DNA of 53,280 nucleotides. Origin: Bacteroidota bacterium. GTDB lineage: Bacteria; Bacteroidota; Ignavibacteria; Ignavibacteriales; Ignavibacteriaceae. Shown one piece after another: positions 9,969 to 49,934 of this stretch. How positions within the stretch are numbered: the first letter of the stretch is position 1; each line of letters begins with the position of its first letter. The notes under the pieces are model-generated. The model made no database searches, had not been told where the DNA came from, and worked only from the letters and a program-made list of their open reading frames with translations. Made by a program: the position numbers and the translations under genes. The stretch is taken from positions 1 through 53,280 of the forward strand of contig JADFPP010000016.1 in assembly GCA_022562275.1 (NCBI GenBank), written 5' to 3'.

Positions 9969-9972
9969 CAAA

Positions 9973-10827: not shown

Positions 10828-10834
10828 AAGAACC

Positions 10835-11674: not shown

Positions 11675-11682
11675 ATATTGTC

Positions 11683-12390: not shown

Positions 12391-13058
12391 TTTTTAGACC
12401 TTTTTTTTACTACGAAATTTTTAATATAAACTGGTTCAAAATAATCGTAATCATAACTGAATTTGTTACCTCCGAACTTCACAGCCCACCTTGCGATGTA
12501 TTCTGCCGTTGGAGAATTAGCCGTGATGTTATTTTCATTATTCACAATGTATTTATATGCATTTCCAAAAGTTTTTATACCATTAATTTTTTTAATAAAA
12601 TCTTCGTTTGTTAATATCTTTAAATCATCTGCAAATATAAAACTATTGGATTTAATTTGAAACCTTGCATAATAAACTTCGCTCCTGTTAACCTTGTTTG
12701 CTATAATAAATTCCGAACCCTCCGCCATTTGGAAGGATAGTTGAAAAGCGAGTGCTTCAAATGTAGGAACAACTAGTAAAGGAACACCAGTACCAGTGGC
12801 AATTCCTTTGGCTGCAGCCATCCCAATCCTTAAACCCGTGAATGAACCGGGTCCTCCGGATACGGCTATTGCACTTATCTCATTTCTATTAATTCCAGCT
12901 AAGTTGAATAAAACTTCAATTATTTCAAATAATTTTTCTGAATGTGAATGCTTTAGGTTAATGCTGGAAGTATAAAATTTTTCATCTGAAAAATAGATTG
13001 CAGCACTGCATATTTCTTCAGACGTTTCAATCGCAAGTAATGGAATAATGTTAATCAT
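12387..13058 (-). CDS. tsaB: tRNA threonylcarbamoyladenosine biosynthesis protein TsaB
   Basis: TsaB is the inactive paralogue and partner of TsaD in making the t6A modification of tRNAs that read ANN codons. The ASKHA fold is recognised from LLAIETSEEICSAAI near the N-terminus, then SGGPGSFTGLRIGMAAAKGI. A longer frame starts at 13091, but the family begins right before the LLAIETS strand, so I choose the ATG at 13058. That start overlaps tsaE by eight bases. The position directly after tsaE supports the call. Confidence 0.92.
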   Translation of the reverse strand: MINIIPLLAIETSEEICSAAIYFSDEKFYTSSINLKHSHSEKLFEIIEVLFNLAGINRNEISAIAVSGGPGSFTGLRIGMAAAKGIATGTGVPLLVVPTFEALAFQLSFQMAEGSEFIIANKVNRSEVYYARFQIKSNSFIFADDLKILTNEDFIKKINGIKTFGNAYKYIVNNENNITANSPTAEYIARWAVKFGGNKFSYDYDYFEPVYIKNFVVKKRSKK

Positions 13059-13479
13059 ACTTTTTAAATTCAAATCTTCGCTTTGTATCATTAATAACAG
13101 TAATTGAAATTTCTATCCTTTTTTCAGGAAGCGCTGCCTCTAACAGTTCACCCCATTCAATAAAAATTGCTGCTCTGGAGTCGTTTAAATAATCCATCCA
13201 GCCAATATCATACAGTTCTTCTATTTTTTTAAGTCTGTAAAAATCGAAATGATAAAATTTAAATTTCCCGTAATATTCATTAACAATTGCAAAAGAAGGA
13301 CTTCTTACATTATTAATTGAGAGAGACTTAAGTACCATTTTGATGAAAAAAGTTTTACCGGAACCAAGATTACCATTTAAAACAATTACCTGCCCGTTCT
13401 TAACTTCGTCAGCAAATTTACTTGCTAAAACTCCTGTTCCATTTTCATCATTAACATTTACAGAAGATGGAAATTCCAC
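13051..13479 (-). CDS. tsaE: tRNA threonylcarbamoyladenosine biosynthesis ATPase TsaE
   Basis: A 142-residue ATPase that works with TsaB and TsaD in t6A synthesis. The Walker A motif GNLGSGKTFF is followed by VRSPSFAIVNEY, the threonine/serine switch region, and then FYHFDFYRLKK and IFIEWGELLEAALPEKR, all family signatures. It begins four bases after the porX stop, so it is transcribed with it. The tsaE-tsaB order is common, while the link to a secretion regulator is probably only positional. Confidence 0.95.
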   Translation of the reverse strand: MEFPSSVNVNDENGTGVLASKFADEVKNGQVIVLNGNLGSGKTFFIKMVLKSLSINNVRSPSFAIVNEYYGKFKFYHFDFYRLKKIEELYDIGWMDYLNDSRAAIFIEWGELLEAALPEKRIEISITVINDTKRRFEFKKYD

Positions 13480-13483
13480 AGAA

Positions 13484-15052
13484 CTACTTTGGCTCCATTG
13501 TAATTACGGGCAATATCATTTCTTCTAAGGAAATACCGCCATGCTGAAAAGTATCTTTATAATGTGAAAGATATTTATGGTACTCAGTAGGATAAACAAA
13601 ATAATAATCTTCCTTGGCAATTATATAGTTTGTAGTAATTCCTCTGCTCGGCAAATTATAATCCTTCGGATTCTTTATAAAAATTGCATGCTTATTATCA
13701 ACTTTTAAATTTCTTCCGTACTTAAATCTTAAATTTGTCGATGCCTCTTTATCACCAAGCACTTTAGCTCCTCTTAAACACCTTATGCTGCCATGGTCAG
13801 TTGTAATAACTATTTTTACATTTTTCATTTTAGACAATGCTTTAAAGGTACTAAGTAAAGATGAGTGAGTGAACCAGCTGTTAGTTAAAGAACGGTAAGC
13901 TGCTTCATCCGGTGCTATTTCTTTTAACAAATCCGAATCGGAGCGACCGTGTGCAATCATATCTAAGAAATTAACTACAACAGCCATAAGGTTTACACCT
14001 TGATAAGAAAGAATATTTTGTTCAAAACTGCGTCCAACATTGGGATCAATTATTTTTATATACTTTAATTCATTTCTTAATTTTAATTTCTTTCTGTCAA
14101 GCAACAACTGGAGCAATTCTTTTTCGTACTTGTTCATACTTCTTTCTTCATCGTTTTTGCCCTGCCATAATTCAGGATAATATTTTTCAATTTCGCTTGG
14201 ATATAAACCGCTAAACAGAGAATTCCTTGAATAAGGAGTTGCAGTTGGAAGAATAGAAAAATAATAATCCTTTTCTATGTTGAAAAGATCTACCAAATGT
14301 TTTTCCATTACCAACCACTGATCAAGACGCAAACAATCAAGGACAAAATAAAAAATATTTATATGTTCATCCTTTAAATGATTTAGAACATACTTATCGG
14401 TAATCTCGGTTGTTAGATTGGGAGTGTCGATATCATTCGGGGATTTCAGCCAATTCTGGTAATTCTGTTCAACAAATTTTGAAAACTCCTTATTCGCCTC
14501 TTTCTTTTGATCATTTAATGTTTGCCTCAATCCAATCTCTGAATGTTGATCTAATTCGATATCCCAGTTAACAAGTTTCAAATAAATATCAATCCATTCA
14601 GCAAAATCAAGTTTACCCATTAGTGCTTGCGAGATTTGGTTAAAGTCCTGAAGGTAATCTTTAGCTGCATATTCGCCTGTAATTTTTTTGCCTTCCAGAA
14701 TTTTTTTGCAAACTAGGAGAACCTGACTTGGATTCACCGGCTTTGTAAGATAGTCGGTGATTTTTCCGCCAATGGCTTCATTCATCAATGATTCTTCTTC
14801 ACTTTTTGTAACCATAACAACAGGAATATTCGGGTTAACTGCTTTTATTCTGCTCAATGTTTCCAGTCCTCCCATACCTGCCATCATTTCATCAAGGAAA
14901 ATCAGATCATAATTTTTTTCATTTACGTATGATATCGCATCTTCACCATTTGTAACTGTATCTACTTCGAATCCCTTTTCAGATAGAAAAATGATATGAG
15001 ATCTAAGTAGTTCAATTTCATCATCTACCCAAAGAAGTTTTTTTGGTTCCAT
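13484..15052 (-). CDS. porX: PorX-type response regulator with PglZ domain (T9SS regulator)
   Basis: A 522-residue protein with a receiver domain at about residues 5-120 and an alkaline-phosphatase-like PglZ domain from about 205 to the end. The receiver has the acidic pair at residues 10-11, the phospho-acceptor Asp54 in LIFLDEMM and the conserved lysine in LTKPVN. The C-terminal domain shows FYFVLDCLRLDQW, SLFSGLYPSEI and KIVITTDHGSIR, the metal-binding type of that superfamily. This architecture is PorX, which with PorY controls the type IX secretion system. It lies 74 bases downstream of sprA, encoding the T9SS translocon, on the same strand. Confidence 0.9.
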   Translation of the reverse strand: MEPKKLLWVDDEIELLRSHIIFLSEKGFEVDTVTNGEDAISYVNEKNYDLIFLDEMMAGMGGLETLSRIKAVNPNIPVVMVTKSEEESLMNEAIGGKITDYLTKPVNPSQVLLVCKKILEGKKITGEYAAKDYLQDFNQISQALMGKLDFAEWIDIYLKLVNWDIELDQHSEIGLRQTLNDQKKEANKEFSKFVEQNYQNWLKSPNDIDTPNLTTEITDKYVLNHLKDEHINIFYFVLDCLRLDQWLVMEKHLVDLFNIEKDYYFSILPTATPYSRNSLFSGLYPSEIEKYYPELWQGKNDEERSMNKYEKELLQLLLDRKKLKLRNELKYIKIIDPNVGRSFEQNILSYQGVNLMAVVVNFLDMIAHGRSDSDLLKEIAPDEAAYRSLTNSWFTHSSLLSTFKALSKMKNVKIVITTDHGSIRCLRGAKVLGDKEASTNLRFKYGRNLKVDNKHAIFIKNPKDYNLPSRGITTNYIIAKEDYYFVYPTEYHKYLSHYKDTFQHGGISLEEMILPVITMEPK

Positions 15053-15126
15053 ATTTGTTTTTTTTATTAAAATTAATAATAATATTTATAATAATAATCA
15101 TTTAAGACTAATTCTAAAATGTACAA

Positions 15127-18100
15127 TCATTGTATTACAATATTCACATCCAGACCTGCTTCGTTTGTAGTTGTTGGAGGAATTCTTGCCGCACCTTTAG
15201 GTTCAACCGTAGATCGTTTGTAAAATAATGATAAAGTTACCTTAGAGCTTATAGTGTAACGAATTCTAGGTTCAATTGTGGTTCGTGTAGTTCCATCCTG
15301 TGGAATTCCGTTCTCAGTAAAGTTGGTCATTTCAAATCTAACAATAGAATTTTGTGTAAGTGTATAAGAAAGACTGAATTCTATATCGTTCTTAAGTTCA
15401 ATACCAAAAAGGGGAAGACTAAAACCGGATTTTGAATAGCTGGCTGTAAATCCAATATCTTTCGAAAAAGTCTCTGTAATATTTGAAGTAGTTACACCCA
15501 GATTGTAACTGTTCCTGATAGAGTATTTAAAATTTCCGGATAAATTTCCTCCCATCATTTGCCCAAAGGTTATATTCAAACCAATTAGCGGTGTAAATCC
15601 ATAATCAATTTTTTGAACTTGCGTTTCCTGTTTACCTTCCCGTGATAGTTTCCAGCCTTCCGTGTAATTTGATGTATAGGAATGATCTAAAGATACTCTT
15701 TGTGCAATTGCACTAAACAATGGAAATTTTTCCAGTCCGGTCCAGGTAAAACGCCAATTTGCTCTGGGAAAGTATTTTGCAACTTCCGCAAGGGCAGGTA
15801 TATTTTTAAACCAGGTTAAAGACTCAAATCCATTTATAAATGCATCTGATAAATTCTTTTTAGGATCCGGTGCATTCGGATCAAACAATTCATTAACTTT
15901 TTTAATACCCGTATCAAAAAACGGCAACGGCAAACTTAAAAAGGATCGGTTTAAATTTCCTGTTGAAGTAATATTTGAAACGATCAGATCCCCGTTGAGA
16001 TCTCTGGTTAAGGTTGTGTTCTTATTAACTCCCCAGCCAACCTTCCAGGTTACATCTATTTTAGCCCCTTCCCATAATGGACGTGATGTTTTGAAATCAA
16101 AACTATTTTTATCTGAGAATATATCACTAAGATTTGTATTTACAGCTTTTGCGCGAGGTCCGGGATCGGAACTGAAGCCCAGCATGAATGCACGTGATGG
16201 TCCATTCGCCGCATTAGATGAAAATCCCCAAAAATTCGTAAATCCCGTACCGGTACTTTCTAGGCCTGATTTTGAAAGACTATGTGTATTAGAAAAATTA
16301 AAAGAAAAATTGTCCCAATCAAAAAAGACTGTTTTAATACTAAGTTTTAACAAACTAAGAAACCTCAAAAGGACAGGCGGCTTACCATCAGTTGTTCCTG
16401 AGAGCGAATCCAGATCTGCCCCTGTTGAATCAGTTCCGTTCCGCTTTTTATTCTCCTCTAATTCTATTAAGTTCCTGTTTCTTTGTGATGTCTTATTGGT
16501 TGTCCTAGTATTATTATCATCTTTACCAAATAAAGGTTCGGTGAGGGATTTCCATCTTAAAATAACTCCAGCAGTACTTTTACTTGAAAATCCCGCGCTT
16601 CTCCCCAAAACTTCCTGCCGCAAATCATAGTTCCACCTATAATTTACTGAGTAACCACCTGAGATAGTAAAGTACCTGTTTATATTCCAAAGCGAGGGTA
16701 GCCGGGGCTGAATTCTAAAATTAACAGACTGTTGATATTTATAATCTTTTCCAAATAGTGCACCACCAAAAATATCGCTCCAAATTTCCGATTCCTCTCT
16801 GTCTAATCCATTATCATCAGCTAATAAATAAGCCAATGACGAATTAATTGTTACATTATAATTTGTACTCAAATTTAACAACCCTCCTTCAGTTATTTTC
16901 CAGGCAAAGTTAAATCCTCGTAAAGTAGTAAAATCCCGTGAAACTATTGGTTCAGTTGATACATTACCTGTTGGTCTGGTTGTACTGCTATTACGATTTC
17001 GCCTGGATGATATACTTGCCGTAAGATTTTGCGGGGTAAAATTAATTTTTGCATCCTTATAATCTTTGAACAGAGAAAAAAACCATCCTATAATTGGAAA
17101 ATTTGAAGGCTTGATGTTAAGATCAGAACTGAAAGTTACTGCATAATTCATAGAAGCATTCCAGACCCAATTTTTTCTCTCAAGAATGGTCGGGTTTCTG
17201 CTAAAAGAATTATTGTAGTTAAAACCGAATGTTAGAGCATTAATTAAATCCCTTACATACCATTTTTCTATTGGTAGTACCAGTTTTATATTAGCCGCAG
17301 AAAAAGTATTGGAAACATTTAATGTCTGTGATTCTGCAATTAATCCTTCGGGTGTTTGCGGATTAATATTGCCGGTAGTATCGGACGTAGCTTTTTGTAA
17401 CTGCTCTGCTGCTTCATCAACTCTAACATCGGTGCCCGGTATATACAAGGGTTTGCCTAACGATTCTGTATGAGAAATATTAACCTGTAAATTACTCTTG
17501 GGCATATTAATGGGTAATAGTTTAAGTACATTAATATTTGTGGATACTGTCCAGTTCTGGCTCTCCACCCGGGAGCCAAAACGTGCAGACAATTTATGAA
17601 AATAAGGATTCTTCTGATTTATGTTAAAATTAACCGACATAATATCAGCAAATTTTAGTGATGTACCTAGACTATATGCCCAACCGGGGGAATCATCCGC
17701 GCCAATAACTCTTAACTCGTTAACCCAAATTTCACCTGAGAGCGGACCGGGATTGAAACCATTAACAAGATTAACTATTCCAACGGTTAAAAATTTTACG
17801 GAAATTAATGTGGGATTTCCTTTCAGTTGATAGAAATGATCGAGTTTCCCGGGGACAGGTATTTTTTTTACCTCGCTTAATGAATCTCTGGCTAACTGTT
17901 TAATGGCTGTTAGTTCATCAAATTTTATTGAAATTTCATTCCAACCCGGTGCTACTGGTTGACGATATTCATAATAGTTATTTGTGTCGGTTCCGAATCT
18001 AAAGAAAACCTCTGCTGAGAACTCTCCGGTTTCAGGATCATTGTAGGATATCGAACCAGGTTGGGAGTTTTCGTCTCCGTGAATAAAAAGTTTCATTTCA

Positions 18101-21100
18101 GTATAATTAAATACATCAAGCGGGCGAAACAAATATTTTATCGCTTCCCGAGAATCACCGGCATCCAGATCGGTAAGGATCAGGTTAAGTGATTGTTCAT
18201 TTTTAAATATCTCTTCGTCAGGTCTTGTTCTGTCTCTTTCCCTGAAAACACCCGGAGGACTTGTATAATCAGGATTCTCTTCCTGGCTAACAACGGAAAT
18301 TGAAAGTACACTATCTTCAGGATCTGCTTTTTGCCACTGGCTTCCAACAAGATTGAATTCGGCAATTTGTAAATGCAAACTTTCCGAAATACCGGTTAAA
18401 AAGAATCTAATTGTTTCAACATTAGATAGACTTGCATTCTGAAAATTAAGCAGCGTATCTTTAAGCGGAATACGATACAAGTACCATCCAGGCACATTAC
18501 CAAATCCACCGCCGGAAATAAATGGATTTGTTGAAGCATTTGTATCCAGTGGTATTTCATACCTTAAATAACTATTAACCAGATCAACATTTCCGTTTCT
18601 ATTAAGATCTTCCGTATCCGGCAATCGCCCAATGTCTGTTAATACTGCATTTCCTTCTGTACCGTTAATTTTATAATAATTCGAAGGATCGGCACCCGCA
18701 CCTTGTACAAGAATAAAATTATCACCTGAGGGATCGCCGGAATCGCGCGCATTTGGAAATTGTAGTCTTTCTTCAGCATCAAAAAAAATGTCCAGTCCTG
18801 TATCTTCACCTTCATCTATTACATCATTAAAGTTTTTGTCTTCAGTATTCAAAATATTGTTTGGAATTACATCTTCACTTATCAATCCCATATCTAAATA
18901 TAATTTTGCATTCGGTGGTGCATCTGCAATTCGCATCCAGAATTCTATAAACTCAACATTCTGCTCAATCAGGTTATTTGCTGTTGATGAGAGAAGTCTT
19001 TGCATTCCTCCCCATCTTTCGCTTGAACTGGTAACATTGGCTGGATCTGTATTATATGTCCCGATAGAATCAGGTTCGTAGATAAAATCTAAAACTGTAA
19101 TCTGTTGGTCTGATCTCCCAACTTGTCTTCTGCCTCCAAATATATCATCTACAACAACAATAGAGGGAGTTATATTATACCAAAAACTTTTCGCCTTAAA
19201 TTGCATTCGCTGCTGCCTGCTAAGGTTTGTCGGCAACCCAGGTATTAGGTCAGGTGGACTGAGATCTTTCCAACCTGTATAACCAATGCCAACCGGGATT
19301 GTTTTTTTTGCTCCTTCAAAGTCATCAATATAAGCAATACTTTTTCCTTCATCGGAAGCAACAGTACTTTTTTTTGTGTTCGGGTCAGGATTCATATATG
19401 CATATTCACCCGAGAAGTTAAAAGTTGACATCTCCCTGGTTGAGAATGCTAAATCTAATAATTTAGTCACGAACGGAAGATCTGCTGAAGTTTTAAAATC
19501 CGTACCGAGAATAGTATTGCTTAAGGGCTCTTCGCCAATTCTAACTTTATCGCTTAATGTTTGTTGATTTAAGTTCATAATAGTAAAACCAAGATGAGTC
19601 TTCCTGGAAAAATCGTACGTGGCACGAGCACCAAGCAACGTTTTTGAAGCAAGCTGGAACAGATCATTCTGCTCATAGGTAATTCTTAAATCAGCTCCTG
19701 GTACTAAGGCAGCATCATTACGAATAGTAAGCTGTCCGATAGCGTAATCAACAACATAGTCCACACCTTCGGTAAGTTCACGACCATTCAGAAGTACCCG
19801 TGCCGAATTTTCGACTACATTAAAACCGAGCTGATACACCGAAGACACCTCGCCGGTCTGTTTACCACTCATTAACCATTTATCGTGCACCTTATCCTGT
19901 TTTGCAAATGTTTTGGTAGTATCATAAATCAAAGAATATTTTAGGTCTTCTGAATCTAAATCCGGTGGAATATTATTTCCGAATGGCTGAAGTGTAGAAA
20001 AAATTATTTCACCAGTCTCCGGAAAGATTGTGTACCCCGGGCGCCAGTCAAATTTATTATCAGGATTCGGATTACCGCCTTCACCTTGCTGATCAAAGCC
20101 GAATGCTTCAAGCAGTTTCACATTTCCGTTTGGAGTTTGCAGTTCATTCGTAGGTTCCTGCCCAATCACCTCATACTTTATTGAGAAATTAAATCCTTCC
20201 TTTTTTATATTCCGGCTGCCCGTCGGGTAAATATTTTTCAGCTTAAGCTGCCATGCATCCGTAAACTGCGGCTGAAGATTTCCCGGTTTAATTAGTTTAA
20301 GTACTAAAAAAGTATCCTGAGCTGTTGCAATAAATTCACCGAATGTTCTATCTGAAGGTCCTTGATTAAATGCAATTGCAATAACATCCTGAGTCTGAAT
20401 AGAAGTTTTAAATGAAATGAACCCGGTGTTCGGATGTAGAATATAATCAACCCCCTGCCTTAGTAATTTAAATCGTCCTGTTTCTATCTTGCCCAATATC
20501 GGTTCTATTGGTTCTCTTAAAGAATCCGGATACTTGCCGCCCGGACTGATAGGTTCCAGATCCAAATATGCATTTGCAGATCTTTCATTCGATTTATCTG
20601 AAGTGATAACATTTATTGATTTCCATACCTCGATCTCGTTTACAAAAAGATCGTTGTTTACGATAGAAGGAACATTAAAAAAATATTGTTTGAAAAGTGT
20701 GCTATCATTATAAACCTTATCGATAAAATAGTGGTTCTCAGAATAATTATATGCCCGAACACTGTATTCCCGGGATGTTGAACCACCTGAGACTAATACT
20801 TCCTTTGTTTCGCCTTTTTTCTGGCTGGCAATAGTTGTTAATTTTAGGGGACCAAGTTTAAACTGGGCTTTTATTCCAAATAGTGCTTCAGCACCGCCAA
20901 TTAGCGGAGAGGTTTGCATCGAAACATTTCCAGCTTCAATATTTTGAATAATTTCGTCTTCATAGCCTGTGTACTTTAGTTTTAGCTGGTTCTCATATTG
21001 GAACGTTCTTTCTGTATTCCAATCGGCAGAAATATTTAGTTTATCGCCAATTGTTCCGTTTACATTTATCTGAACCTGTTGTTTAAAATCTGGTTCGTTT

Positions 21101-25152: not shown

Positions 25153-25481
25153 TAATGTACATTTTTAATGTCAGATAATCAAATCTGTCGGTTGGTATAA
25201 TTAATCCTTGGTTCTTAAATCAATTTTTAAGTTATCTAACTCAAGTTGACCGTTTAAAAACTGATTTATGAAAAACCGTTTGCCGAAGGCATCCCTTCGG
25301 GAGAAACGGTTAAAAAAATAAGGTTTTGTGTATTAACCCACGACTTAAGTCGTGGGTTAATGCGAAAAAATCAAGTATAATAACCGTTTTAACAGTTTTC
25401 TATAGCAACCTGTCAACTTGAGTTATCTAACATTCAAAAAAATGCATCAAATACATCGAATGACAAACGCCTCTTGATATT
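25153..25481. other. Intergenic region holding a MITE-like element
   Basis: Between the antitoxin and hpnE there is no gene. Nearly two thirds of the space is the 201-base element at 25231-25431, with terminal inverted repeats and two internal hairpins. The rest is AT-rich and unremarkable. Confidence 0.6.
25231..25431. repeat. MITE-like element with 20-bp terminal inverted repeats and two hairpins
   Basis: GTTATCTAACTCAAGTTGAC at 25231-25250 and GTCAACTTGAGTTATCTAAC at 25412-25431 are inverted repeats matching at 17 of 20 positions. Inside are two hairpins: AACCGTTTGCCGAAGGC pairing toward GGGAGAAACGGTT (about 25270-25305), and ACCCACGACTTAAGTCGTGGGT (about 25336-25357). A diverged copy of the double-hairpin core, in opposite orientation, is at 32990-33090. 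There is no coding capacity. Confidence 0.65.
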
Positions 25482-28597: not shown

Positions 28598-29401
28598 ATG
28601 ATAAAAATAATTCTTATTTCAATTATAACAAGTTTAATTCTGTTCAGCTGTAATACAAAACACAGTTCTATAAATCTTGATACTGTAAAGATTATTGACC
28701 TGACACATCCATTCGATAAAGAAACTATTTATTGGCCTACTGCTGAAAGTTTCAAATTTGATACTGTTTTTGCTGGTATTACAGATAAAGGTTTTTATTA
28801 TACTGCATTCCAGTTTTGCTCAGCAGAACACGGGGGAACACATTTAGACGCACCCATTCATTTTGCAAAAGACAAACAAACCGTCGATAAAATTCCCCTA
28901 ACCAATTTAATTGGTAAAGCTATTGTAATTGATATAAAAGAAAAAGCTTTGGAAAACAAGGACTATTTGATAGGAATTGATGATTTTAAAAATTGGGAAG
29001 ATAAGAATGGAAAAATCTTTGACGGAGCTATTGTTCTGCTGAATACAGGTTATGCACGTTTTTGGCCCGACAGAGAAAAATATATGGGAACCGCAGAACT
29101 CGGACAAAACGCTGTTGCAAAATTACACTTTCCGGGTTTGGATCCAAAAGCAGCCGAGTGGCTGACTAATAAAAGAAAAATTAATGCAATAGGACTTGAT
29201 ACGCCCAGCATAGATTACGGACAATCGGTTTTATTTAAAAGCCATCAAATATTATTAAAAAATAATATCCCTGTTTTTGAAAACGTAACAAATTTAGATA
29301 AACTTCCTTCACAAGGAGCTTTTGTTTTTGCACTACCTATGAAAATAAAAGGAGGCAGTGGAGGACCACTTAGAATTGTAGCGTTGGTAAATAGTGATTA
29401 G
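28598..29401 (+). CDS. Cyclase-family (kynurenine formamidase-like) lipoprotein
   Basis: A 267-residue protein of the cyclase/kynurenine-formamidase fold. The N-terminus is a lipoprotein signal with a lipobox ending LFSC (Cys18). The metal-binding signature is clear: EHGGTHLDAPIHFAKDKQTV, then VDKIPLTNLIGKAIVIDI. The later GLDTPSIDYG and GGSGGPLRIVAL are also family features. Members hydrolyse amide or lactone bonds with bound zinc or manganese; the substrate is unknown. It is divergent from hpnC, with 118 bases between the genes. Confidence 0.88.
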   Translation: MIKIILISIITSLILFSCNTKHSSINLDTVKIIDLTHPFDKETIYWPTAESFKFDTVFAGITDKGFYYTAFQFCSAEHGGTHLDAPIHFAKDKQTVDKIPLTNLIGKAIVIDIKEKALENKDYLIGIDDFKNWEDKNGKIFDGAIVLLNTGYARFWPDREKYMGTAELGQNAVAKLHFPGLDPKAAEWLTNKRKINAIGLDTPSIDYGQSVLFKSHQILLKNNIPVFENVTNLDKLPSQGAFVFALPMKIKGGSGGPLRIVALVNSD

Positions 29402-31716: not shown

Positions 31717-31877
31717 TGCAGCTCTGCTAATTATTGAAAATAAAAATTAATATTATTCACATTTTACTATCTTTTGATTTATAAGGTTTTTCTAGGATAT
31801 GTTAGTTATTCCTTACAAAAATAATTATTAAAAAGTTTAAACCAATTAAGAATTTAGAATTAAAAGTTTTCTAATCA

Positions 31878-32876
31878 TCAATGCTGTGGAAGGATCATTA
31901 CTTTTTTTACATCATCATCCCCTTTTTCGATTAATTTTATACCTCTTTCAAACTCAGATAATGGCAACCGGTGAGAGATCAAACCAGACACATCAATTTT
32001 TCCAGCTTCTAATAATGCTATAGCCTGATATGAATTACGAACGGATGTAAATGATGAAACAATTGTAAGACCTTTTTGAAATATCTTCATTCCTTCAAGC
32101 TTCAATTTTTTTCCTGCCGGTGGAACACCGAATAATAGTACTGCTCCACCAGTTCGCACCAAATCGATTGTTTGCTCCATTAAAGAAATAACCCCGGTAG
32201 CATCAATGACCAGATCAAAATCATCCTTTTCAAAATCATTTATATTCCGGACAATTTGATTAGCGCCGTATTGTTCAGCTAAGGCAGCCCGGGATGCTAG
32301 ATTCTCTAAAACCGAAACATGGACCGCACCTTGCAACTGAGCCATTTGAAGGAAGAGAATGCCAATCGGTCCGGCACCAAACACAACTACACTGTCTCCG
32401 GGATTGATGTTTACCTTCATCAGACCATACAACACACAGGATAAAGGTTCCATAAAAGCAGCATATTCAAATTGTAACTTATCTATATTGAATACTGATT
32501 TTTCAGGAACAACCACGAATTGAGCCATACCACCTGATTTTGTTACACCTATTGCTTGCCAGTTTTTACAAAAATTTTGTCTGTTGTTAAGGCAGTTATA
32601 ACAATTATCGCAGCTTATATTCGGTTCTACCGCAACATTGTCTCCAATCTTAAACCGGGTAACACTCTCTCCGATTTTTTCTATAGTTCCGGAAAATTCA
32701 TGACCCGGGATTATAGGATACTTTGCTATATAATCACCTCGCAATATGTGAATATCAGTACCACAAATACCGCTTGCCATTACTTTAATTAAGACTTCAT
32801 CAGCTTGTAACCTGAGTAATTTTAAATTAACTAAATTAATTTGATTAGGTTGAACGATTCTTATTGCCTTAAACAT
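31878..32876 (-). CDS. Zinc-dependent medium-chain alcohol dehydrogenase
   Basis: A 332-residue medium-chain dehydrogenase. The catalytic zinc site is CGTDIHILRGDY and PGHEFSG. The structural zinc loop has four cysteines in CDNCYNCLNNRQNFC. The NAD-binding motif is VVVFGAGPIGILFLQMAQ. The pattern is closest to the sorbitol/threonine dehydrogenase branch, but the substrate cannot be told. No neighbour on the same strand suggests a pathway. Just beyond its start (from about 32990) the repeat-rich accessory region begins. Confidence 0.9.
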   Translation of the reverse strand: MFKAIRIVQPNQINLVNLKLLRLQADEVLIKVMASGICGTDIHILRGDYIAKYPIIPGHEFSGTIEKIGESVTRFKIGDNVAVEPNISCDNCYNCLNNRQNFCKNWQAIGVTKSGGMAQFVVVPEKSVFNIDKLQFEYAAFMEPLSCVLYGLMKVNINPGDSVVVFGAGPIGILFLQMAQLQGAVHVSVLENLASRAALAEQYGANQIVRNINDFEKDDFDLVIDATGVISLMEQTIDLVRTGGAVLLFGVPPAGKKLKLEGMKIFQKGLTIVSSFTSVRNSYQAIALLEAGKIDVSGLISHRLPLSEFERGIKLIEKGDDDVKKVMILPQH

Positions 32877-32989
32877 AACATTAATCTAAAAAGAGATAAT
32901 AATTTATTTGCATTTTACTATCTTTTGGTTTTTCAATTTTAATTGGTTTGTTACACCATACTCTAGAGACAGTGTGAAAACAAAAAAAT

Positions 32990-33090
32990 TAGATTAACCC
33001 ACGATTTCAATCGTGGGAATTTGGGTAAAAACCAACTGTGTCTTTAACCGTTTCTCCAAAGGAGGCCTTTGGACAATGGTTTTTACGATA
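32990..33090 (-). repeat. Double-hairpin repeat, inverted copy of the 25.3 kb element core
   Basis: Read on the minus strand this segment has the same order as 25266-25362: a stem built from AAACC...GGAGAAACGGTT, a spacer, then CCCACGATTGAAATCGTGGG and TTAAT. The loops differ, while the arms are conserved or co-vary. It lacks the terminal inverted repeats of the first copy. It marks the left edge of the accessory region. Confidence 0.6.
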
Positions 33091-33117
33091 TTAACACAAG
33101 CTCTTAAACATTAGCTT

Positions 33118-33290
33118 AAAATTATTGCAAACAACCTTCGGGTTATTAGCAAATATTTTAACTGCACCTGCCAATTACTTAACTCTCACATTTGTTTAAA
33201 TATCTGAATGATTATGATAGCTAATCTTTATTTATTCTCTTATGCCAACCTAATATTATTTTTAACAATCCGCACTTAATTTTATGGGAG
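33118..33290. repeat. Repeat R, partial copy 1 (short right-end variant)
   Basis: The segment from AACAACCTTCGGGTTATTAG to about 33255 matches the core of the R repeats at 34150, 39120 and 45096. Its right end (TTTTTAACAA, GCAC, AATTTT and GGATTT) instead matches the partial copy at 40030-40255. It therefore defines a second R variant without the micro-ORF. It ends about 70 bases before the CULT gene stop. Confidence 0.7.
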
Positions 33291-33358
33291 GATTTGCTAC
33301 AGGCGCAGACGAACTTATCAGTATTGCATTGTTATAAATTACTTGCCCGCCTTACTTT

Positions 33359-33760
33359 CTAATTAAAACGAGCTGCTCCTTTTATCAGTCTGGATTTGAT
33401 TAGTCCGTAAAACGAAAATTCTCCGTGATATTTCCATCCAAGATGGCTACCACAACGGCTGCAAAAAGTAAACAACCATGAATGCCCGGGAAACCATGTA
33501 AATTCCATTGTGGGTTCTCCCTCTTCCTGGCATCCATCGGCAACACAAAAAGTGATAATATCAAAAAAGTACCCGCCTGGATTTACAAATTGAAATTCAC
33601 TTTTATTATTAAATACAAATCTGTCTTTATCTGAAGTAATTTTTTTAGTACATAGCATGCATAACCAGTCATCGGGCTTAAATTCCAATTTAGCTCTAAC
33701 CTCCGGTTCTAATTGAGTGCCAAAATCATTACGTTGGTTCTGATTTTCTTTTTCTTCCAT
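33359..33760 (-). CDS. Single-domain bacterial cereblon-like (CULT domain) protein
   Basis: A 133-residue protein whose residues about 30-125 match the CULT domain, the thalidomide-binding fold of cereblon, known also as stand-alone bacterial proteins. The zinc ligands are CMLC (Cys34, Cys37) and CSRC (Cys100, Cys103). The three cage tryptophans are Trp89 in FTWFPG, Trp95 in GHSW and Trp109 in HLGW. FVNPGGYFFD and FYGLIKSRL also agree. There is no signal peptide, Lon domain or DDB1-binding part. The SD GGGAGGAA precedes the ATG. In bacteria the domain binds uridine and cyclic imides in vitro; its role in the cell is unknown. It lies between two R repeats, so it may be mobile cargo. Confidence 0.87.
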   Translation of the reverse strand: MEEKENQNQRNDFGTQLEPEVRAKLEFKPDDWLCMLCTKKITSDKDRFVFNNKSEFQFVNPGGYFFDIITFCVADGCQEEGEPTMEFTWFPGHSWLFTFCSRCGSHLGWKYHGEFSFYGLIKSRLIKGAARFN

Positions 33761-33823
33761 TTAAATTCCTCCCGCCACACCAGCCATTATTAATTGTTTT
33801 ATCTATCATTACAAAATCTTCAT

Positions 33824-33978: not shown

Positions 33979-34146
33979 CTAATTTACCTCTATTGCGCGA
34001 TCACTCGTTAATACGAAAGAAAACATTGCTACACCCTGTTCGGTAAAAATATAGGGTGGATAGCGACTACCACCTTTTCCTTTTTTGAGGTCGCGAAATG
34101 CTACTTCAGAGATTATAAATTTAAAGTTATTTTTTTGTACCAACAT
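33979..34146 (-). pseudogene. ORF6N/KilA-N-type DNA-binding protein fragment
   Basis: Fifty-five codons, from ATG 34146 to TAG 33979, contain the ORF6N core KGGSRYPPYIFTEQGVAMFS followed by SDRAIEVN. This region normally lies in the middle of a longer phage- or island-type protein. The N-terminal strand and everything after the VN of the RAIEVNI helix are missing, so it is a remnant. It abuts the left edge of R copy 2. Confidence 0.75.
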
Positions 34147-34149
34147 TTT

Positions 34150-34572
34150 CTACCACAATTTTTATGCAGGCTGGTTTATCGCCAATAGATTTAAGAAAAG
34201 ATTTTATAAAATTTTTATAACAAAAATAAATTAATTATTATCAACAATCTTCGGGTTATTAGCAAATATTTTAACTACACCTGTCAATTAATTAGCTCTC
34301 ACTTCCGATTAAATTTCTGAATGATTATGAAAGCAAATACTTATTTTTTTTCTCATACCAAATTAACATTATTCACTCTTCAACTCAATTTTAAGTAAGG
34401 AATTATTGTATATTATAATAATTGAATTGCTCGCCCCAAAAATACTCAGTTCCTATCTGCATCTTTATAGAAACTTAATATTAATATGCTTAGTGAGATT
34501 GGGGTGAAGTTTAGTAAAGAATATTTTATGAAGAGGTATAATTTAGGTGAGGGGGATTTTGAGTTAAATTGA
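34150..34572. repeat. Repeat R, long copy 2
   Basis: One of three long copies (with 39120-39547 and 45096-45509). Shared landmarks, left to right, are TTAAGAAAAGATTTTATAAA, TCTTCGGGTTATTAGCAAAT, CTGAATGATTATGA, CTCTTCAACTCAATTTTAAG, AAAATACTCAGTTCC, then the micro-ORF at 34486-34572. Most of the unit is AT-rich and noncoding. No terminal inverted repeats or transposase are seen. Confidence 0.8.
34486..34572 (+). other. Conserved micro-ORF in repeat R (28 codons)
   Basis: ATG to TGA encodes a peptide starting MLSEIGVKFSKEYF and continuing MKRYNLGEGDF. It recurs in the copies at 39449-39547 and 45423-45509. Differences among the three lie mostly at third codon positions (gtg/gta, aag/aaa, gaa/gag, tta/ttg) or give S/T, D/N and E/D exchanges, as if protein sequence was kept. 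There is no SD. It faintly resembles the C-terminal end of Mu-type portal proteins, an impression I cannot verify. Confidence 0.4.
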
Positions 34573-34717
34573 CTATTGTGGTTAACAGTCATGTTTGAGC
34601 GGCAAAGGGATTAACAGCAATAATCTGAAATGTTTGAAAAATACCTGCGAGAAAACACTAATTTAACTTAAATAAAAACAGCACTTTGTCCGCTCCAAAC
34701 AATTGTTATACGCCATG

Positions 34718-36754
34718 CTACCGCAAGAGGATGAGTTTCTTTGTTTCAAAATATGTTCCTGCTTGTATTTTATAGAAATACACCCCGCTGGAGAAGCCTA
34801 TCGCCTCCCATCTTGTTTTAAAGCTTCCTGCCGGATAATTACCAGACGTAAGCACTGCGACTTCACGCCCAAGCACATCATACACCTTTAGTGTTACGAT
34901 GCCCGACTGTGGCAAGTCAAACGCAATAGTCGTCAGTGGATTGAAAGGATTCGGGTAGTTCTGTGCGAGCCTATATGTGGCCGGAATTTCTTCATCCACA
35001 AGCTCTACCGCGGTCATGATGTCAATCGAGAATGGTAGTAAATTTATACTGAAGACATTGGCATCCTTATGGTCAGTGACTGTAATCATGCATAAATCGC
35101 TCGCAGGCTCGGTGACAGTCCATTGAAAAGAACCTGTATTCGGAATATTATTAGTGATTTGCTCCCAGTTTATGCCACCATCACGCGATATTTGTAAATC
35201 AACCGTCATGTTATAAAGAATTTCCAATTCGATGACATTCCACTGAATAAGCACCTGCTGACCGGTAGTCCACTGTTCCCCTCCGGCGGGAGCAGTTAAA
35301 TTAAGAACAAGCGGTGGGTGATAGTTCATCACATTGAAACCCACTGGGCCGGTAGCGCTATTTGCGGCAGCGATGTATTCGTTGTAAACAGCATTCTGTG
35401 CATCAATTGAAGTCAACACCTGTTTCAAATCCAGTTCAATGGTATTAACATCTGGAGCCCTGGTTGGAATCTGGTCCTTTATCCAGCCAGCAATGTTATT
35501 GAAATCCTGTCCAAGCGAAGTAAGCTGCTCGTTCTCATCAAAAAGATTATCCTGCCATTCCCATTCCGGAAAAGCAATAACGCCCCAGTGAAGCCAGCCA
35601 GAAGTAGAATTGAGTAATTCATCCACGGACGAATTGTTCTCAGCCAGGTTATACTCCTCCAAGATCACTGGCTTGGAGGTGAACGCATATCTCAACACGC
35701 CCTCTATAAATTTGCCGACGTTATTATCCCACCAGTTGTATGCGTGGATCGAAATATAGTCCATCAGAGGGGCTATTTTTTTTGGATTAAAGGCGGTGTA
35801 GGTTTTGTAGAAACCATCGACATGTTTAATCGGGGCCGAGTGCTGATCCAGTCCTAAGGTGATAAGATGATTTGGGTCAACGGCACGCAGCATATCTGAT
35901 AATCTACGGGTCCAGTTGTAAGCGATGTCTTCCCTAAAAAGCTGGTAGTCGAAAAGACGAGGATTGCCTGGATCATTCAAAGCCGTGAATTCATCGAAGG
36001 TAGGTTGCTGAATTTGGTTCCACGATTCGCCTGCTCTGGGGTAATCGTCCCAAGCCTCTGCGAGGTCAGTTTCAGCCTGGTACCTGAAATGCACCCAAAT
36101 CGGCCAAAGATCACCCATTATGCCCGAATCGGGTCCTCGCACATATGGTTCATTCTTAAGGCTCCAAGCAAAAACAGCAGGCTCATCAGCATATCGGTTT
36201 CCCAGGGCCTGAACATAAAACTCGTATCCTTGAATTGTTTGAGATTCGGCATAGTATTCCCAACTTTCCCAACCTGGCGCTCCCTCCCAATCATTTATAA
36301 GGTCGAAAATAATGCGCAAATTGTATTTTTTAGCAAGCTCAATAAGCTTATCCAGCGTGAGGAAGCTGGACTCGTTGATCAGACGAAGCTCGGGCTCGAA
36401 GCTCACCACGGATAAAAAAATCCGAACGATGTTGACGCCAATGCTATCCAGTTTCGCAAAGTGCCGGTCCGTTCGCGTGGAGTCAAACTGACCAATCACA
36501 TCAAACGCTGCAAATGGGTCAGAGTGGAAGGTCGCCGGGTCGTAGTAGTTCACTCCCCAGGGGACAAACGGTTGTTGAGAGACAGCGGTTTCAAAATGCC
36601 ATCCGTCTGATGCGACCCTTATAAATTCGTCAGCTTCGTTTGCTAGATATGTCAATCCCGTTTGCATCTGAAATTGGGCAACAAGGGAAGTACAAAAGAG
36701 ACAAATAAATAGTCCCATTGAAGTAAAAAAGTTAATCATAATAGTTCTCCTCAA
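34718..36754 (-). CDS. Secreted GH5-like glycoside hydrolase with Ig-like and T9SS sorting domains
   Basis: A 678-residue exported enzyme. Residues 1-26 are a signal peptide. A TIM-barrel of the cellulase (GH5-like) superfamily runs from about 60 to 400. The likely acid/base is Glu202 in SLKNEP and the likely nucleophile Glu367 in VILEEYN. An Ig-like domain (about 487-575, LTAPAGGEQWTTGQQVLIQW) follows. The C-terminal T9SS sorting domain (594-678) has NYPNPFNP, VYDVLGREVAVL and GVYFYKI. The substrate is probably a beta-linked polysaccharide such as mannan or glucan. The T9SS domain ties it to the sprA/porX genes in this window. Its DNA is visibly more GC-rich than its surroundings, and it lies beside repeats, suggesting acquisition. 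Confidence 0.9.
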   Translation of the reverse strand: MRRTIMINFFTSMGLFICLFCTSLVAQFQMQTGLTYLANEADEFIRVASDGWHFETAVSQQPFVPWGVNYYDPATFHSDPFAAFDVIGQFDSTRTDRHFAKLDSIGVNIVRIFLSVVSFEPELRLINESSFLTLDKLIELAKKYNLRIIFDLINDWEGAPGWESWEYYAESQTIQGYEFYVQALGNRYADEPAVFAWSLKNEPYVRGPDSGIMGDLWPIWVHFRYQAETDLAEAWDDYPRAGESWNQIQQPTFDEFTALNDPGNPRLFDYQLFREDIAYNWTRRLSDMLRAVDPNHLITLGLDQHSAPIKHVDGFYKTYTAFNPKKIAPLMDYISIHAYNWWDNNVGKFIEGVLRYAFTSKPVILEEYNLAENNSSVDELLNSTSGWLHWGVIAFPEWEWQDNLFDENEQLTSLGQDFNNIAGWIKDQIPTRAPDVNTIELDLKQVLTSIDAQNAVYNEYIAAANSATGPVGFNVMNYHPPLVLNLTAPAGGEQWTTGQQVLIQWNVIELEILYNMTVDLQISRDGGINWEQITNNIPNTGSFQWTVTEPASDLCMITVTDHKDANVFSINLLPFSIDIMTAVELVDEEIPATYRLAQNYPNPFNPLTTIAFDLPQSGIVTLKVYDVLGREVAVLTSGNYPAGSFKTRWEAIGFSSGVYFYKIQAGTYFETKKLILLR

Positions 36755-38849: not shown

Positions 38850-39119
38850 CTTTTGTGTGATTTTGAAATAAACCTGTCTGCCGATAGGTAGATTCAAAAT
38901 GATGGTTTGTCAAAATGTTATTTTTCAGAAGTCTCAAACATATGAAATTTAGTTGAGTAGAATATGCAGCCAAACATATTAAATAAATTACAGAAAAAGA
39001 TAGCGCGAACAATTTTTTTGTATAGAAATTATTTTGGACAGCCGTAAAAAGATTTTAAGTAAATGGTTCGCTGCCGGTTTTTCTAATAGTGGTAGGAACA
39101 AAACAGTTTTTATCCATTT

Positions 39120-39547
39120 TTAATTTTTATGCGAGCTGGAACATAGCCCTTTGAATTAAGGAATGATTTTATAAAATTTTTAGAACAAAAATCATTAATT
39201 ATTATAAAGTAATTCACGGATATGAGAGAGTAATTTAACTACACCTGCCAATTACTTAGCTCTCACTTTTAACTGAATTTCTGAATGATTATGATAGCTA
39301 ATATTTATTTTTGCTCTTATGCCAAATTAATATTATTTACTCTTCAACTCAATTTTGAGTAAGGAATTACTATATATTTTAATAATTAAATTGCTCTCCC
39401 AAAAATACTCAGTTCCCATCTGCATCTTTATTGAATCATTATATTAATATGCTTAGTGAGATTGGGGTAAAGTTTACAAAAGAGTATTTTATGAAGAGGT
39501 ATAATTTGGGTGAGGGGAATTTTGATTTAAATATTGATTTAATATAA
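39120..39547. repeat. Repeat R, long copy 3 with micro-ORF
   Basis: Matches the other long copies from TTTTTATGCGAGCTGGAACA at the left to the micro-ORF at 39449-39547 at the right. The part equivalent to the TCTTCGGGTTATTAG block is diverged here. The micro-ORF has three extra codons after FDLN and ends TAA. On the minus strand the left end encodes SFLNSKGYVPARIK, as in copies 5 and 6. Confidence 0.8.
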
Positions 39548-39629
39548 TAAAATTATATTGTGGCAAGGAAATTGATATATGGGTTTACTAAATAAATCCA
39601 TAATTAAGCACATAGAGAATAGGCAAAAT

Positions 39630-39971
39630 ATGAAGAAAACACTTTTATATATTATTGCATTAGCTTTTTCAATTGGTGTTATTGGTTGTTCAACTGATCC
39701 ACCCAGCGTTAGAGTTCGCAATGAGCGTACTGATAAAGCAAATGTCCAAATAAAAACCACCACTACTACCATCAATCAAAATGATGTTATTGCAGGTTCA
39801 ACTACAAATTATCAAGAAGTTGCTGAGGGCAATATAGAAGCCACAGCATCAATTCAAAGTGAATCAGTTTCACCCACAACAACATTCAATGCTACTAACG
39901 ACAATAATTATACTGTAGTGGTTGTAAATAGTAATCCTCCAACACTACGAGTGGATTCATCAAGTAAGTAG
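39630..39971 (+). CDS. Small lipoprotein, possibly DUF4397-like
   Basis: A 113-residue protein using the ATG at 39630, where a proper lipoprotein signal starts (MKKTLLYIIALAFSIGVIGC, Cys20). The longer frame from 39579 would bury that signal. The mature part is Thr/Ser/Asn-rich with beta-strand character and a YQEVAEGNIEATASI pattern that recalls DUF4397 domains, but I would not insist. It sits between R copies 3 and 4 and faces away from every neighbour, like a one-gene cassette. Confidence 0.7.
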   Translation: MKKTLLYIIALAFSIGVIGCSTDPPSVRVRNERTDKANVQIKTTTTTINQNDVIAGSTTNYQEVAEGNIEATASIQSESVSPTTTFNATNDNNYTVVVVNSNPPTLRVDSSSK

Positions 39972-40481
39972 TGAATAAAATTAAAGCGGACGTAAGAGCA
40001 TCAGTTTTTTTAATGATGCGGGCGAGTTTAATCCCAATAGTTTTAAGAAATGATTTTATGAAATTTAGATGACAAAAATAAATTTATTATTATCAACAAT
40101 CTTCGGGTTATTAGCAAATATTTTAACTACACCTGCCAATTACTTAACTCTCACTTCCGATTAAATTTCTGAATGAATATAATAGCTATTGTTCATTTAT
40201 TCTCTTATGATAATCTAATATTATTTTTAACAAGCAGCACACAATTTTGCGGAAGGATTTGGTATAGAATATAAGGATTAATGCTCAACGGACCTGCTGA
40301 TTAATAGTGATAATACAAAAAATCGTTTTCACTTTTACTGCCTTCGCAAGACATTATTTTACCAGGAGTTATGTGTGCTATAGATGTCTATCTTTTCATA
40401 CTGAAGAAGTAGTTGAACTAGTAATTTTTTATGTTTTTAGTTGATCCGAAAATTACCTTTTATTATATAGGATTAAGACTT
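39972..40481. other. Intergenic region with partial R copy 4
   Basis: No gene is supported. The partial R copy covers 40030-40255. The following 220 bases before the AbiEii stop are AT-rich with no clear signal. Confidence 0.5.
40030..40255. repeat. Repeat R, partial copy 4 (short right-end variant)
   Basis: Shares AAGAAATGATTTTATGAAAT, CAATCTTCGGGTTATTAGCA, ACACCTGCCAATTACTTA and CTGAATGA with the long copies. Its right end matches copy 1 (TAATATTATTTTTAACAA, then AATTTTGCGGAAGGATTTG) and lacks the micro-ORF. Confidence 0.75.
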
Positions 40482-47815: not shown

Positions 47816-47859
47816 GCAAGGGAGTCACTTTTAGTTAGATATTGTAGTTAAGTTATAGG

Positions 47860-48210
47860 TTAAGAATCACTATCAAAACTCTTGATAGCTTCTTCTCTTG
47901 TCTTATACAAATCAAATAATCCGAGAGTATTTGGGGTAGTAAATATATCTTCTCTCGGATTGACAGGTTCTACTACTTTCAGCTTACCCCCTATAACAAT
48001 CATCTTCTGCAATGCCAGAACAACTACTCCAAAGAATGTCGAGTCAATATAGTCACACTTGCTTAAATCAATTACCAATTTATTATGATCGGAACTGATT
48101 TCATCCTTTATCAACTTCTTAAATTCATTTGCTTCCAGAATAGTAGATCGAGTGAAGTTAACCACAATAACATAGACACCATCAACATATATTTTTTCAA
48201 AATTTTCCAA
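47860..48210 (-). CDS. STAS-domain anti-anti-sigma-like protein (1)
   Basis: A STAS-domain protein of about 116 residues. KLVIDLSKCDYIDSTFFGVV contains the phosphorylatable serine of the DST motif, and LKVVEP follows. The TTG at 48210 is preferred over TTG 48246 because the paralogue at 49444-49806 starts at the same place and both read TGGAAAATTTTGAAAAAATA there. Such proteins release sigma factors from anti-sigma kinases when unphosphorylated. A sigma-factor gene starts divergently nearby, but no anti-sigma kinase gene is present. Confidence 0.87.
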   Translation of the reverse strand: MENFEKIYVDGVYVIVVNFTRSTILEANEFKKLIKDEISSDHNKLVIDLSKCDYIDSTFFGVVVLALQKMIVIGGKLKVVEPVNPREDIFTTPNTLGLFDLYKTREEAIKSFDSDS

Positions 48211-48442
48211 GATAAATCCGCAATTTGATAATGAAATTTCCTTCAAACATAAATCATCATCTATTCAATAGCAATCATCTGTTCCCATAATTAAAAACAA
48301 TCAAGTTTTTCGAACCCTCTTATATAATTAAATCGCTATATTCTATATAATGATATTTGGGTAGTTTGGGAAATTCCTCCCATTGAAAAATTACCTGGAT
48401 AGTTATCGTATCTATAAATCTTCAGAAAGGAGAACGATCAGC

Positions 48443-49300
48443 TTGAAATTAACAAAGCAAATCACTACTCGCGAAAGTAAATCTATAGATCAGTATTTTC
48501 AGGAAATAGGTAAGGTTGATCTTTTAACTCCTGATGAAGAGATAAACCTGGCTATAAAAATTAAGAATGGAGATGAAGATGCTCAGGAGAAATTAGTCCG
48601 AGCTAATTTAAGATTCGTGGTTTCTGTTGCTAAGCATTTTCAGAATCAAGGTCTTCCCCTGGTCGATTTAATAGGCGAAGGAAACGTCGGTTTAATTAAA
48701 GCTGCTCAGCGATTTGATGTAACACGTGGATTCAAGTTTATCTCTTATGCAGTCTGGTGGATAAGGCAAGGTATTATGGAGGCAATTGCTTATCAATCAA
48801 GAGTGGTTCGATTACCTTTAAACCGTGTAAGTAATCTTACAAAGATCAGCAAAGCTTTCAGAGACCTGGAACAGGAATCCGAAAGAAAACCTACTACGGA
48901 AGAGTTAGCTGAAATTCTTGATATGACAACCGATGAGGTTGCATATCTTCTTCAAATATCAGGTCGTCAGGTTTCAATGGATGCCCCCTTAAAAGCAGGT
49001 GATGAGAATAAAACCACAATGATGGATGTGCTTCCAAACGAGCATCAGCCACTGCCAGATAAAGATCTGATGAATGAATCTCTTAAGAATGAACTCGCAA
49101 ATGCTCTTTCCATTCTCAGTAGTAGAGAAGCTGAGGTGATAAAGCTTGCATTCGGGATTGGTTCTGGTAATAAAGCTACTTTAGAAGAGATAGGTGAGAG
49201 ATTTAATCTTACGAGGGAAAGAATAAGACAGATAAAGGAAAAAGCTTTAAGAAAATTGAGGGGTTCGAAAATGAGCGATAGGTTAATAACTTACTTATGA
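48443..49300 (+). CDS. Primary-like RNA polymerase sigma factor (sigma-70 family)
   Basis: A 285-residue group 1/2 sigma factor. Region 1.2 ([20 protein letters not shown]), region 2 ([20 protein letters not shown] and [18 protein letters not shown]), region 3 and region 4 ([20 protein letters not shown]) are all complete. The start is the TTG at 48443, behind AAGGAG; a longer frame from TTG 48383 has no SD. It resembles the housekeeping sigma of Bacteroidota but differs enough to be an alternative one. STAS-domain genes lie on both sides on the opposite strand, suggesting partner-switch control. Confidence 0.93.
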
Positions 49301-49391
49301 TAAGTTCGAGAGAAGTTGATTTAAAAGCAATCGAGAAAAATCGGTTTTTAAAATTTATTCTACAATGTATGCGTGTATCTCACACAAAACC

Positions 49392-49412
49392 ACCCCCCTC
49401 CTTTTCCGGGGG
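49392..49412 (-). terminator. Possible terminator between the convergent sigma and STAS genes
   Basis: ACCCCC (49392-49397) pairs with GGGGGT (49407-49412) around nine bases. On the minus strand the stem is followed by GGTTTTGTG, a weak T-tract. It is placed 32 bases past the STAS stop and about 90 past the sigma stop. Confidence 0.45.
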
Positions 49413-49443
49413 TATGGGGTATCAATCAGGTTGAAAGTTTTCA

Positions 49444-49806
49444 TCAACTTTCAGGTTGAATATCTTCCTCAAAACTCTTGATAGCATCTTCTCTTGTCTT
49501 ATACAAATCAAATAATCTGAGAGTATTCGTGGAGGTGAATATATCCATTGCAGGAATGGCGGGTTCAACTATTCTCAAAGCACCACCAATGTAAGTCATC
49601 TTCTTGAATGATTTGATAAGCTCCCCTAAAAAAGTCGAATCAATATGTTCACACATACTGAGATCAACTACTAATCTTGTATGACCAAAACTAATCTGTT
49701 GCTTTATTATCTCATTAAATTCGTTTGCTTCTAGGAAAGTAGGGCTTATTAAGTGGACTACAATAACAAATACATCGTCTACAAATATTTTTTCAAAATT
49801 TTCCAC
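49444..49806 (-). CDS. STAS-domain anti-anti-sigma-like protein (2)
   Basis: About 120 residues, paralogue of the STAS protein at 47860-48210: both share LEANEFxxxI, DLSxCxxIDSTF, a KKM/QKM segment and the tail TNTLxLFDLYKTRExAIKSF. The conserved serine is in IDSTFLGE. The GTG at 49806 is chosen because GGGAG lies five bases before it; the longer TTG start at 49818 has none. Together with copy 1 it brackets the sigma-factor gene. Confidence 0.87.
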   Translation of the reverse strand: MENFEKIFVDDVFVIVVHLISPTFLEANEFNEIIKQQISFGHTRLVVDLSMCEHIDSTFLGELIKSFKKMTYIGGALRIVEPAIPAMDIFTSTNTLRLFDLYKTREDAIKSFEEDIQPES

Positions 49807-49934
49807 GAGAGCTCCCAAATATTATTATAGTGCTTACCTTCAAATTTAAGGATTTAATGAATAGATGAAAAAAATATTTACGAGACCTGGAGATGAATCC
49901 GGCTACGTTAAAACTACGCTGTGACGGGGAGAGT

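Follow-up and report, generated by a model that had tools for sequence, protein, structure and literature searches.

The window analysed here, a stretch of 53,280 nt from a Bacteroidota bacterium of the Ignavibacteriaceae (contig JADFPP010000016.1), carries an intact open reading frame, with an ATG start and a TAG stop, for a stand-alone protein resembling the CULT (cereblon thalidomide-binding) domain. The gene is flanked by two copies of a direct repeat, R, as an earlier sequence-only reading of this DNA had claimed, and a fragment of a decayed ORF6N-domain gene lies between it and the second copy (Table 1).

Table 1. Features of the CULT locus, with positions in the window
Feature	Position	Strand	Basis
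R repeat, partial copy 1, lying 3' of CULT	33051..33260	+	Repeat comparison
Block homologous to genome G005, 90% DNA identity: CULT gene with 12 nt 3' and 31 nt 5'	33347..33791	-	Match ends on both sides
Stand-alone CULT protein, 133 aa	33359..33760	-	Homology search and alignment
Codon of the C-terminal Asn133	33362..33364	-	Alignment, nine sequences
Stretch coding W89 to W109: three cage tryptophans and second CxxC (C100, C103)	33434..33496	-	Alignment
Shine-Dalgarno-like GGGAGG, 7 nt upstream of the CULT ATG; TGGAGG in G005	33768..33773	-	Direct reading
Fragment of a decayed ORF6N-domain gene, between CULT and the second R copy	33980..34155 (limits approximate)	-	26.5 bits, cut-off 27.8
R repeat, copy 2, lying 5' of CULT	34160..34587	+	Repeat comparison

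When the CULT protein was searched against the PDB sequences with phmmer, MsCI4 was the best match (E 7.4e-19), followed by cereblons at E of about 2e-13 to 2e-11 over their CULT part only. A profile of six relatives reached MsCI4 at E 2e-20, and the membership proposed by the sequence-only reading was thus upheld by both searches. Nine sequences, the window protein and eight intact relatives, were then aligned with MsCI4. The two CxxC pairs and three tryptophans listed in that reading were all present and correctly named: C34, C37, C100, and C103 correspond to the four zinc cysteines of MsCI4, and W89, W95, and W109 to its cage residues W79, W85, and W99. In addition, N60, P61, and Y111 correspond to N50, P51, and Y101, and each of these residues is identical in all nine sequences. 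The MsCI4 numbering obtained from the alignment agrees with the W79, Y83, and W85 named in the accessible part of PMC4449219.

Pfam listed four families for the CULT protein, all below threshold and none of them a Lon domain; the N-terminus is charged and hydrophilic, and no signal peptide was seen by eye, in line with the stand-alone product, free of Lon domain and signal peptide, described before. The other zinc-ribbon families against which that description was to be judged, MsrB and Yippee, gave no match above the Pfam cut-offs: Yippee-Mis18 (PF03226) scored 16.3 bits against a cut-off of 26.6, and MsrB models were absent from the list up to E 10. GFA scored 12.6 bits against 24.3. NCBIfam returned nothing for the protein up to E 1, and its best E in PHROGs was 0.057. 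AlphaFold2, run on two-sequence alignments only, produced two models with mean pLDDT of 36.4 and 46.8; both were unusable, so the cage geometry rests on the alignment with a homologue of solved structure. Judged by homology, the window protein is a member of the bacterial single-domain group of the CULT domain.

Genomic setting, exchange, and distribution

We compared the window with related genomes, scoring 40 candidates per genome, so that the counts are lower bounds. Between 15.0 and 28.43 kb the window was collinear with G005:C31 at 73–83% DNA identity (73–77% in the longest blocks), and collinearity with both G005 and G003 stopped at about 28,426. Past this point, G005 and G003 had a gene order in common, judged by eye from the ORF starts, that was missing from the window, indicating that the CULT gene lies in a region differing between congeners. 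Besides the CULT block (Table 1), a dehydrogenase block at 31868–32920 was 91% identical to a place elsewhere in G005, and a block at 39058–40020, containing an R repeat and a small lipoprotein-like ORF, was 92% identical to G005. Between the window and G005, dS came to 0.08 (small ORF), 0.13 (CULT gene), and 0.27 (dehydrogenase), whereas two backbone synthase genes reached 1.46 and, in a comparison limited to the N-terminal part, 2.22. The plain reading of this difference is that the CULT gene was recently exchanged between species, and the suggestion of island-like cargo was supported, with the collinearity break at about 28.43 kb agreeing with it.

A search of the window's genome with R copy 2, in which 40 of 103 candidates were scored and others may exist, gave at least six matches, among them copy 2 itself and a piece of 47 nt, and all matches listed were on the window's contig between 33.1 and 45.5 kb. 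In G005, R was found 5.3 kb from the CULT gene on contig C18 and, together with the small lipoprotein-like ORF, on contig C51 beside the BREX genes brxL and pglZ and a YhcG-like ORF. Short pieces of R also matched in G002 and G003. Direct copies of R could permit cargo swapping by homologous recombination.

Other repeats were seen nearby. A palindromic repeat with the core TTAACCCACGA..TCGTGGGTTAA lies at 25239–25433 and has many matches in G005, G003, and G002, and a short related palindrome is visible by eye near 33000–33030, between the dehydrogenase and CULT genes. Behind the CULT stop there is an inverted repeat with 12-nt arms (33258–33269 and 33328–33339) spaced 58 nt apart, which was not listed as a terminator and by eye is not a proper attC. 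Rfam gave no match over gathering scores between 28000 and 53280.

Integron integrases at E up to 1e-60 occur in at least 60 of 164 genomes of the order, and a cassette origin of the CULT gene was considered. An integrase over the cut-off was present in six of the nine CULT genomes, in none of them on the CULT contig, and integrases at E up to 1e-60 were found in at least 54 of the 155 genomes of the order without CULT (12 candidates scored per genome; Fisher p 0.075). A contig of another genome (G493:C221, about 9020–19437) shows an integron integrase followed by six 39-nt repeats, attC-like by eye, with small ORFs between them. No site like these repeats was seen by eye in the 160 nt behind CULT in eight relatives, and the G005 match ends 12 nt after the stop; the cassette idea was rejected on these grounds. 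In the window's own genome, a gene for an integron integrase at the end of a contig (C23:7020–7947) is broken into two parts whose reading frames differ.

The distribution of CULT was patchy. With E-values calculated for one genome, carriers amounted to six of 80 genomes in the family and nine of 164 in the order, the window's genome included, and all nine hold an uninterrupted copy. Across the phylum sample, in which at most 10 candidates were scored per genome, at least three of 395 genomes were carriers: that of the window, that of a congener, and a third from the same order. A scan of genome contigs from all phyla, which detects close relatives only, returned a single relative (contig JADFLR010000047.1). 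When the window CULT protein and MsCI4 were used as tblastn queries, none of the 72,556 plasmid and 50,697 phage records gave a match. Three scans of viral contigs gave a lone match of 25 residues, and it was dropped because 1,200 bases at that place resemble phage structural-gene DNA by eye. In G003, the intact gene is accompanied by a second, decayed copy with seven in-frame stops (L017, G003:C1:209813–210202), which adjoins genes resembling mraZ and mraW by eye.

Constraint on the CULT gene

Apart from the window–G005 pair, 12 pairs within family f1 had a finite dS, and their dN/dS ratio was 0.09–0.25; in pairs involving f2 it went up to 0.37. The CULT relatives are under purifying selection, and the constraint across the family is clear. 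The window–G005 pair itself had a dN/dS of 0.65. Its 35 differences were polarised with G003 and G033, which assigned 17 to the window branch and nine to the G005 branch and left nine ambiguous. Non-synonymous changes made up 12 of the 14 strictly polarised ones on the window branch, and 13 of 17 under loose polarisation. The corresponding p values for this excess were 0.001 and 0.005 at an omega of 0.17 and 0.010 and 0.035 at 0.25, and the numbers were as expected at an omega of 1. The CULT gene tree was poorly resolved: the four genus members came together in none of 200 bootstrap trees, and their unity was not rejected (AU p 0.057).

These changes raise the question of whether the window copy is an open frame on its way to decay in a graveyard region. 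The non-synonymous excess would be unlikely at an omega of 0.17, CULT shows more non-synonymous change relative to G005 than the neighbouring dehydrogenase does (Fisher p 0.001), and G003 has kept a decayed copy beside its intact one. However, the window matches all 35 columns that are invariant in the other eight sequences, the changes are few, the small ORF at 39579–39971 also stands at 0.41, and the p values weaken at an omega of 0.25. Recently split pairs often show a raised dN/dS. We regard loss of function as a real but minor prospect, and we read the pattern as relaxed constraint outside the pocket after transfer.

Neighbouring genes and candidate functions

Ten neighbourhoods were compared, those of the window and of nine further loci, one of which has the decayed CULT copy. 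Besides CULT, only secretion-tail proteins, like the one at 34718–36754, recurred at three or more loci. Gene pairs common to two loci only were a STAS-like ORF shared by the window and L018, a 90-residue ORF shared by L017 and L019, and a weak match of 23% between L022 and L023. For Pfam, 20 neighbours were hand-picked at seven of the eight loci with intact relatives, L019 being left out with its 3.8-kb contig. At the G061 locus (L020) the neighbours included HepT, NO VEIN, a nucleotidyltransferase, and a type I restriction domain, and at L016 there was a DUF4357 protein. The other neighbours belonged to transport, signalling, hydrolase, beta-lactamase-family, glyoxalase, peptidase, and similar families, and three had no family.

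Two features of the window beyond the immediate flanks were also recorded. The first gene past the synteny break (28598–29401), at a distance of about 4 kb from CULT, matches PF04199, 'putative cyclase', a group that includes cyclic-amide-opening enzymes such as isatin hydrolase. Farther along (47850–49818), two similar ORFs, 47860–48246 with a STAS match and 49444–49818, flank a gene for a sigma-70 family factor on the opposite strand.

The best explanation of the window protein, which we consider probable though far from assured, is that it would act as a non-catalytic reader of cyclic-imide protein ends or of uracil-like rings, carried as an accessory gene. By alignment, it would be a small beta-tent protein, zinc-stapled and probably cytosolic, whose aromatic cage is intact. 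The three tryptophans would clamp a cyclic imide ring, most likely making it a binder rather than an enzyme. The physiological ligand may be a damaged or processed protein C-terminus, ending in aspartimide or glutarimide, or a uracil-like ring. Holding the ligand would presumably alter its fate, either by sequestering it or by handing the target to another protein. We infer the imide binding, the target, and the outcome of binding. Among homologues, solved CULT proteins bind thalidomide-type glutarimides, MsCI4 also binding uracil and uridine (accessible part of PMC4287342), and human cereblon recognises C-terminal cyclic imides (accessible part of PMC11974815). The lack of a recurrent partner gene is expected of a self-sufficient binder; equally, a lone binder of this kind gives no hint of its output.

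The rim of the cage counts against such a reader. At the position of MsCI4 Tyr83 (window 93), eight of the nine sequences have His and one has Tyr, and at that of Ile87 (window 97), all nine have Phe or Tyr. As Tyr83 ties together two mobile parts of the domain (accessible part of PMC4449219), His or Tyr at 93 with Phe or Tyr at 97 may alter the rim geometry.

The uracil and uridine binding of MsCI4, whose cage residues are the same, also fits a sensor or scavenger of uracil, uridine, or a related nucleoside instead of a reader of protein ends, and G061 has a gene whose start resembles cytidine deaminase by eye about 8.5 kb from CULT. However, Pfam found no nucleoside-metabolism family among the 20 neighbours, and the natural cereblon substrates described in the accessible part of PMC11974815 are proteins with imide ends, which leaves a nucleoside role unlikely.

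Could the protein be a working part of an anti-phage defence, for example by recognising phage-modified nucleosides? The 'decayed defence genes' of the sequence-only reading stood in part: the ORF6N remnant and a YhcG/DUF1016 nuclease gene, cut at the C-terminus and about 4 kb from CULT, agree with it, whereas AbiEi (337 aa) and AbiEii (287 aa) are encoded by open frames. These genes all lie within about 9 kb of CULT, HepT/nucleotidyltransferase, NO VEIN, and restriction-subunit genes occur near the G061 copy, and an R repeat of G005 adjoins brxL and pglZ. But PADLOC had no model matching the window CULT protein (E up to 0.001), no defence partner recurred at three or more of the ten neighbourhoods, and the phage and plasmid collections gave no CULT match. 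The survey of relatives proposed in that reading likewise told against defence islands, as defence or toxin–antitoxin genes were clear at L020 and arguable at L016 among the seven loci, most of which adjoin other kinds of genes. The defence association belongs to R and its region more than to CULT, and a defence function for the protein is improbable.

If CULT reads protein ends, the C-terminus of the protein itself deserves attention. Human PCMT1, a housekeeping PIMT (accessible part of PMC13001092), turns C-terminal Asn into the cyclic imide recognised by cereblon (accessible part of PMC11974815). The last residue of all nine CULT sequences is Asn, in one alignment column, with varying residues before it (GAALFN, GETLFN, ALTIMN). 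A gene for Pcm, the housekeeping methyltransferase that is the bacterial counterpart of PCMT1, was present in each of the 11 genomes examined; since two of these lack CULT, the presence of Pcm is uninformative. As a control, 15 single-copy ortholog families, each from at least four genomes, were inspected in the genome stretches examined. The last residue was invariant in two of them, CULT (nine genomes) and release factor 2 (seven genomes; identified by eye), and was Asn in both, while Asn ended 10.3% of the 458 ORFs examined. As one of the 14 other families also had an invariant Asn, the C-terminal signal is weakened. It is quite improbable that Pcm turns the C-terminal Asn of proteins into aspartimide for CULT to read, with CULT's own tail as a substrate that occupies its own or a neighbour's cage, switching it off or oligomerising it. 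Should bacterial Pcm and CULT prove to act as writer and reader, the natural ligand of cereblon would predate ubiquitin ligases by far.

Whatever the ligand, bacteria offer the plainest setting for CULT, with one domain and no ubiquitin ligase, and the nine sequences provide natural cage-rim and tail variants for testing which ligand evolution kept. In the open literature, with most subscription journals outside its scope, we found no physiological role for bacterial CULT proteins, nothing joining the CULT domain with horizontal gene transfer, and nothing joining cereblon, a bacterial homolog, and an endogenous ligand.

Comparison with known CULT and beta-tent proteins

Yippee and Mis18 are not known to have the tryptophan cage. 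Within the same fold they are the nearest relatives of CULT, and CULT, MsrB, and GFA have a common origin (accessible part of PMC4287342). An enzymatic role like that of MsrB or GFA, to which this origin and a Cys77 conserved in eight of the nine sequences might point, is most improbable, since MsrB was not listed up to E 10, GFA fell under the cut-off, and the Cys77 position is Ser in the remaining relative (L023) and Leu in MsCI4.

About 80–95 residues of the window protein align with the human cereblon CULT domain (E about 1e-11), and in this part zinc cysteines and cage tryptophans are shared, but neither a Lon domain nor any other cereblon part is present. The secreted animal CULT proteins (accessible part of PMC4287342) are also single-domain but carry a signal peptide, unlike the window protein with its charged, hydrophilic N-terminus as judged by eye.

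The closest counterpart is MsCI4 of Magnetospirillum gryphiswaldense (MGR_0879; PDB 4v2y and others), which is likewise single-domain, with two CxxC motifs, the same cage, and 39% identity. The window protein differs in having some ten extra residues ahead of the first CxxC, a loop before the last strand that is three residues shorter, and a C-terminal tail that is two residues longer and ends in Asn, where MsCI4 ends in Asp; at the rim, it has H93 for Y83 and F97 for I87. The bacterial CULT proteins listed in the accessible part of PMC4287342 come from Proteobacteria and one spirochete, so that the lineage of the window extends that list. What is new is a bacterial group absent from the list of the family-defining paper, in a family that was itself already known.
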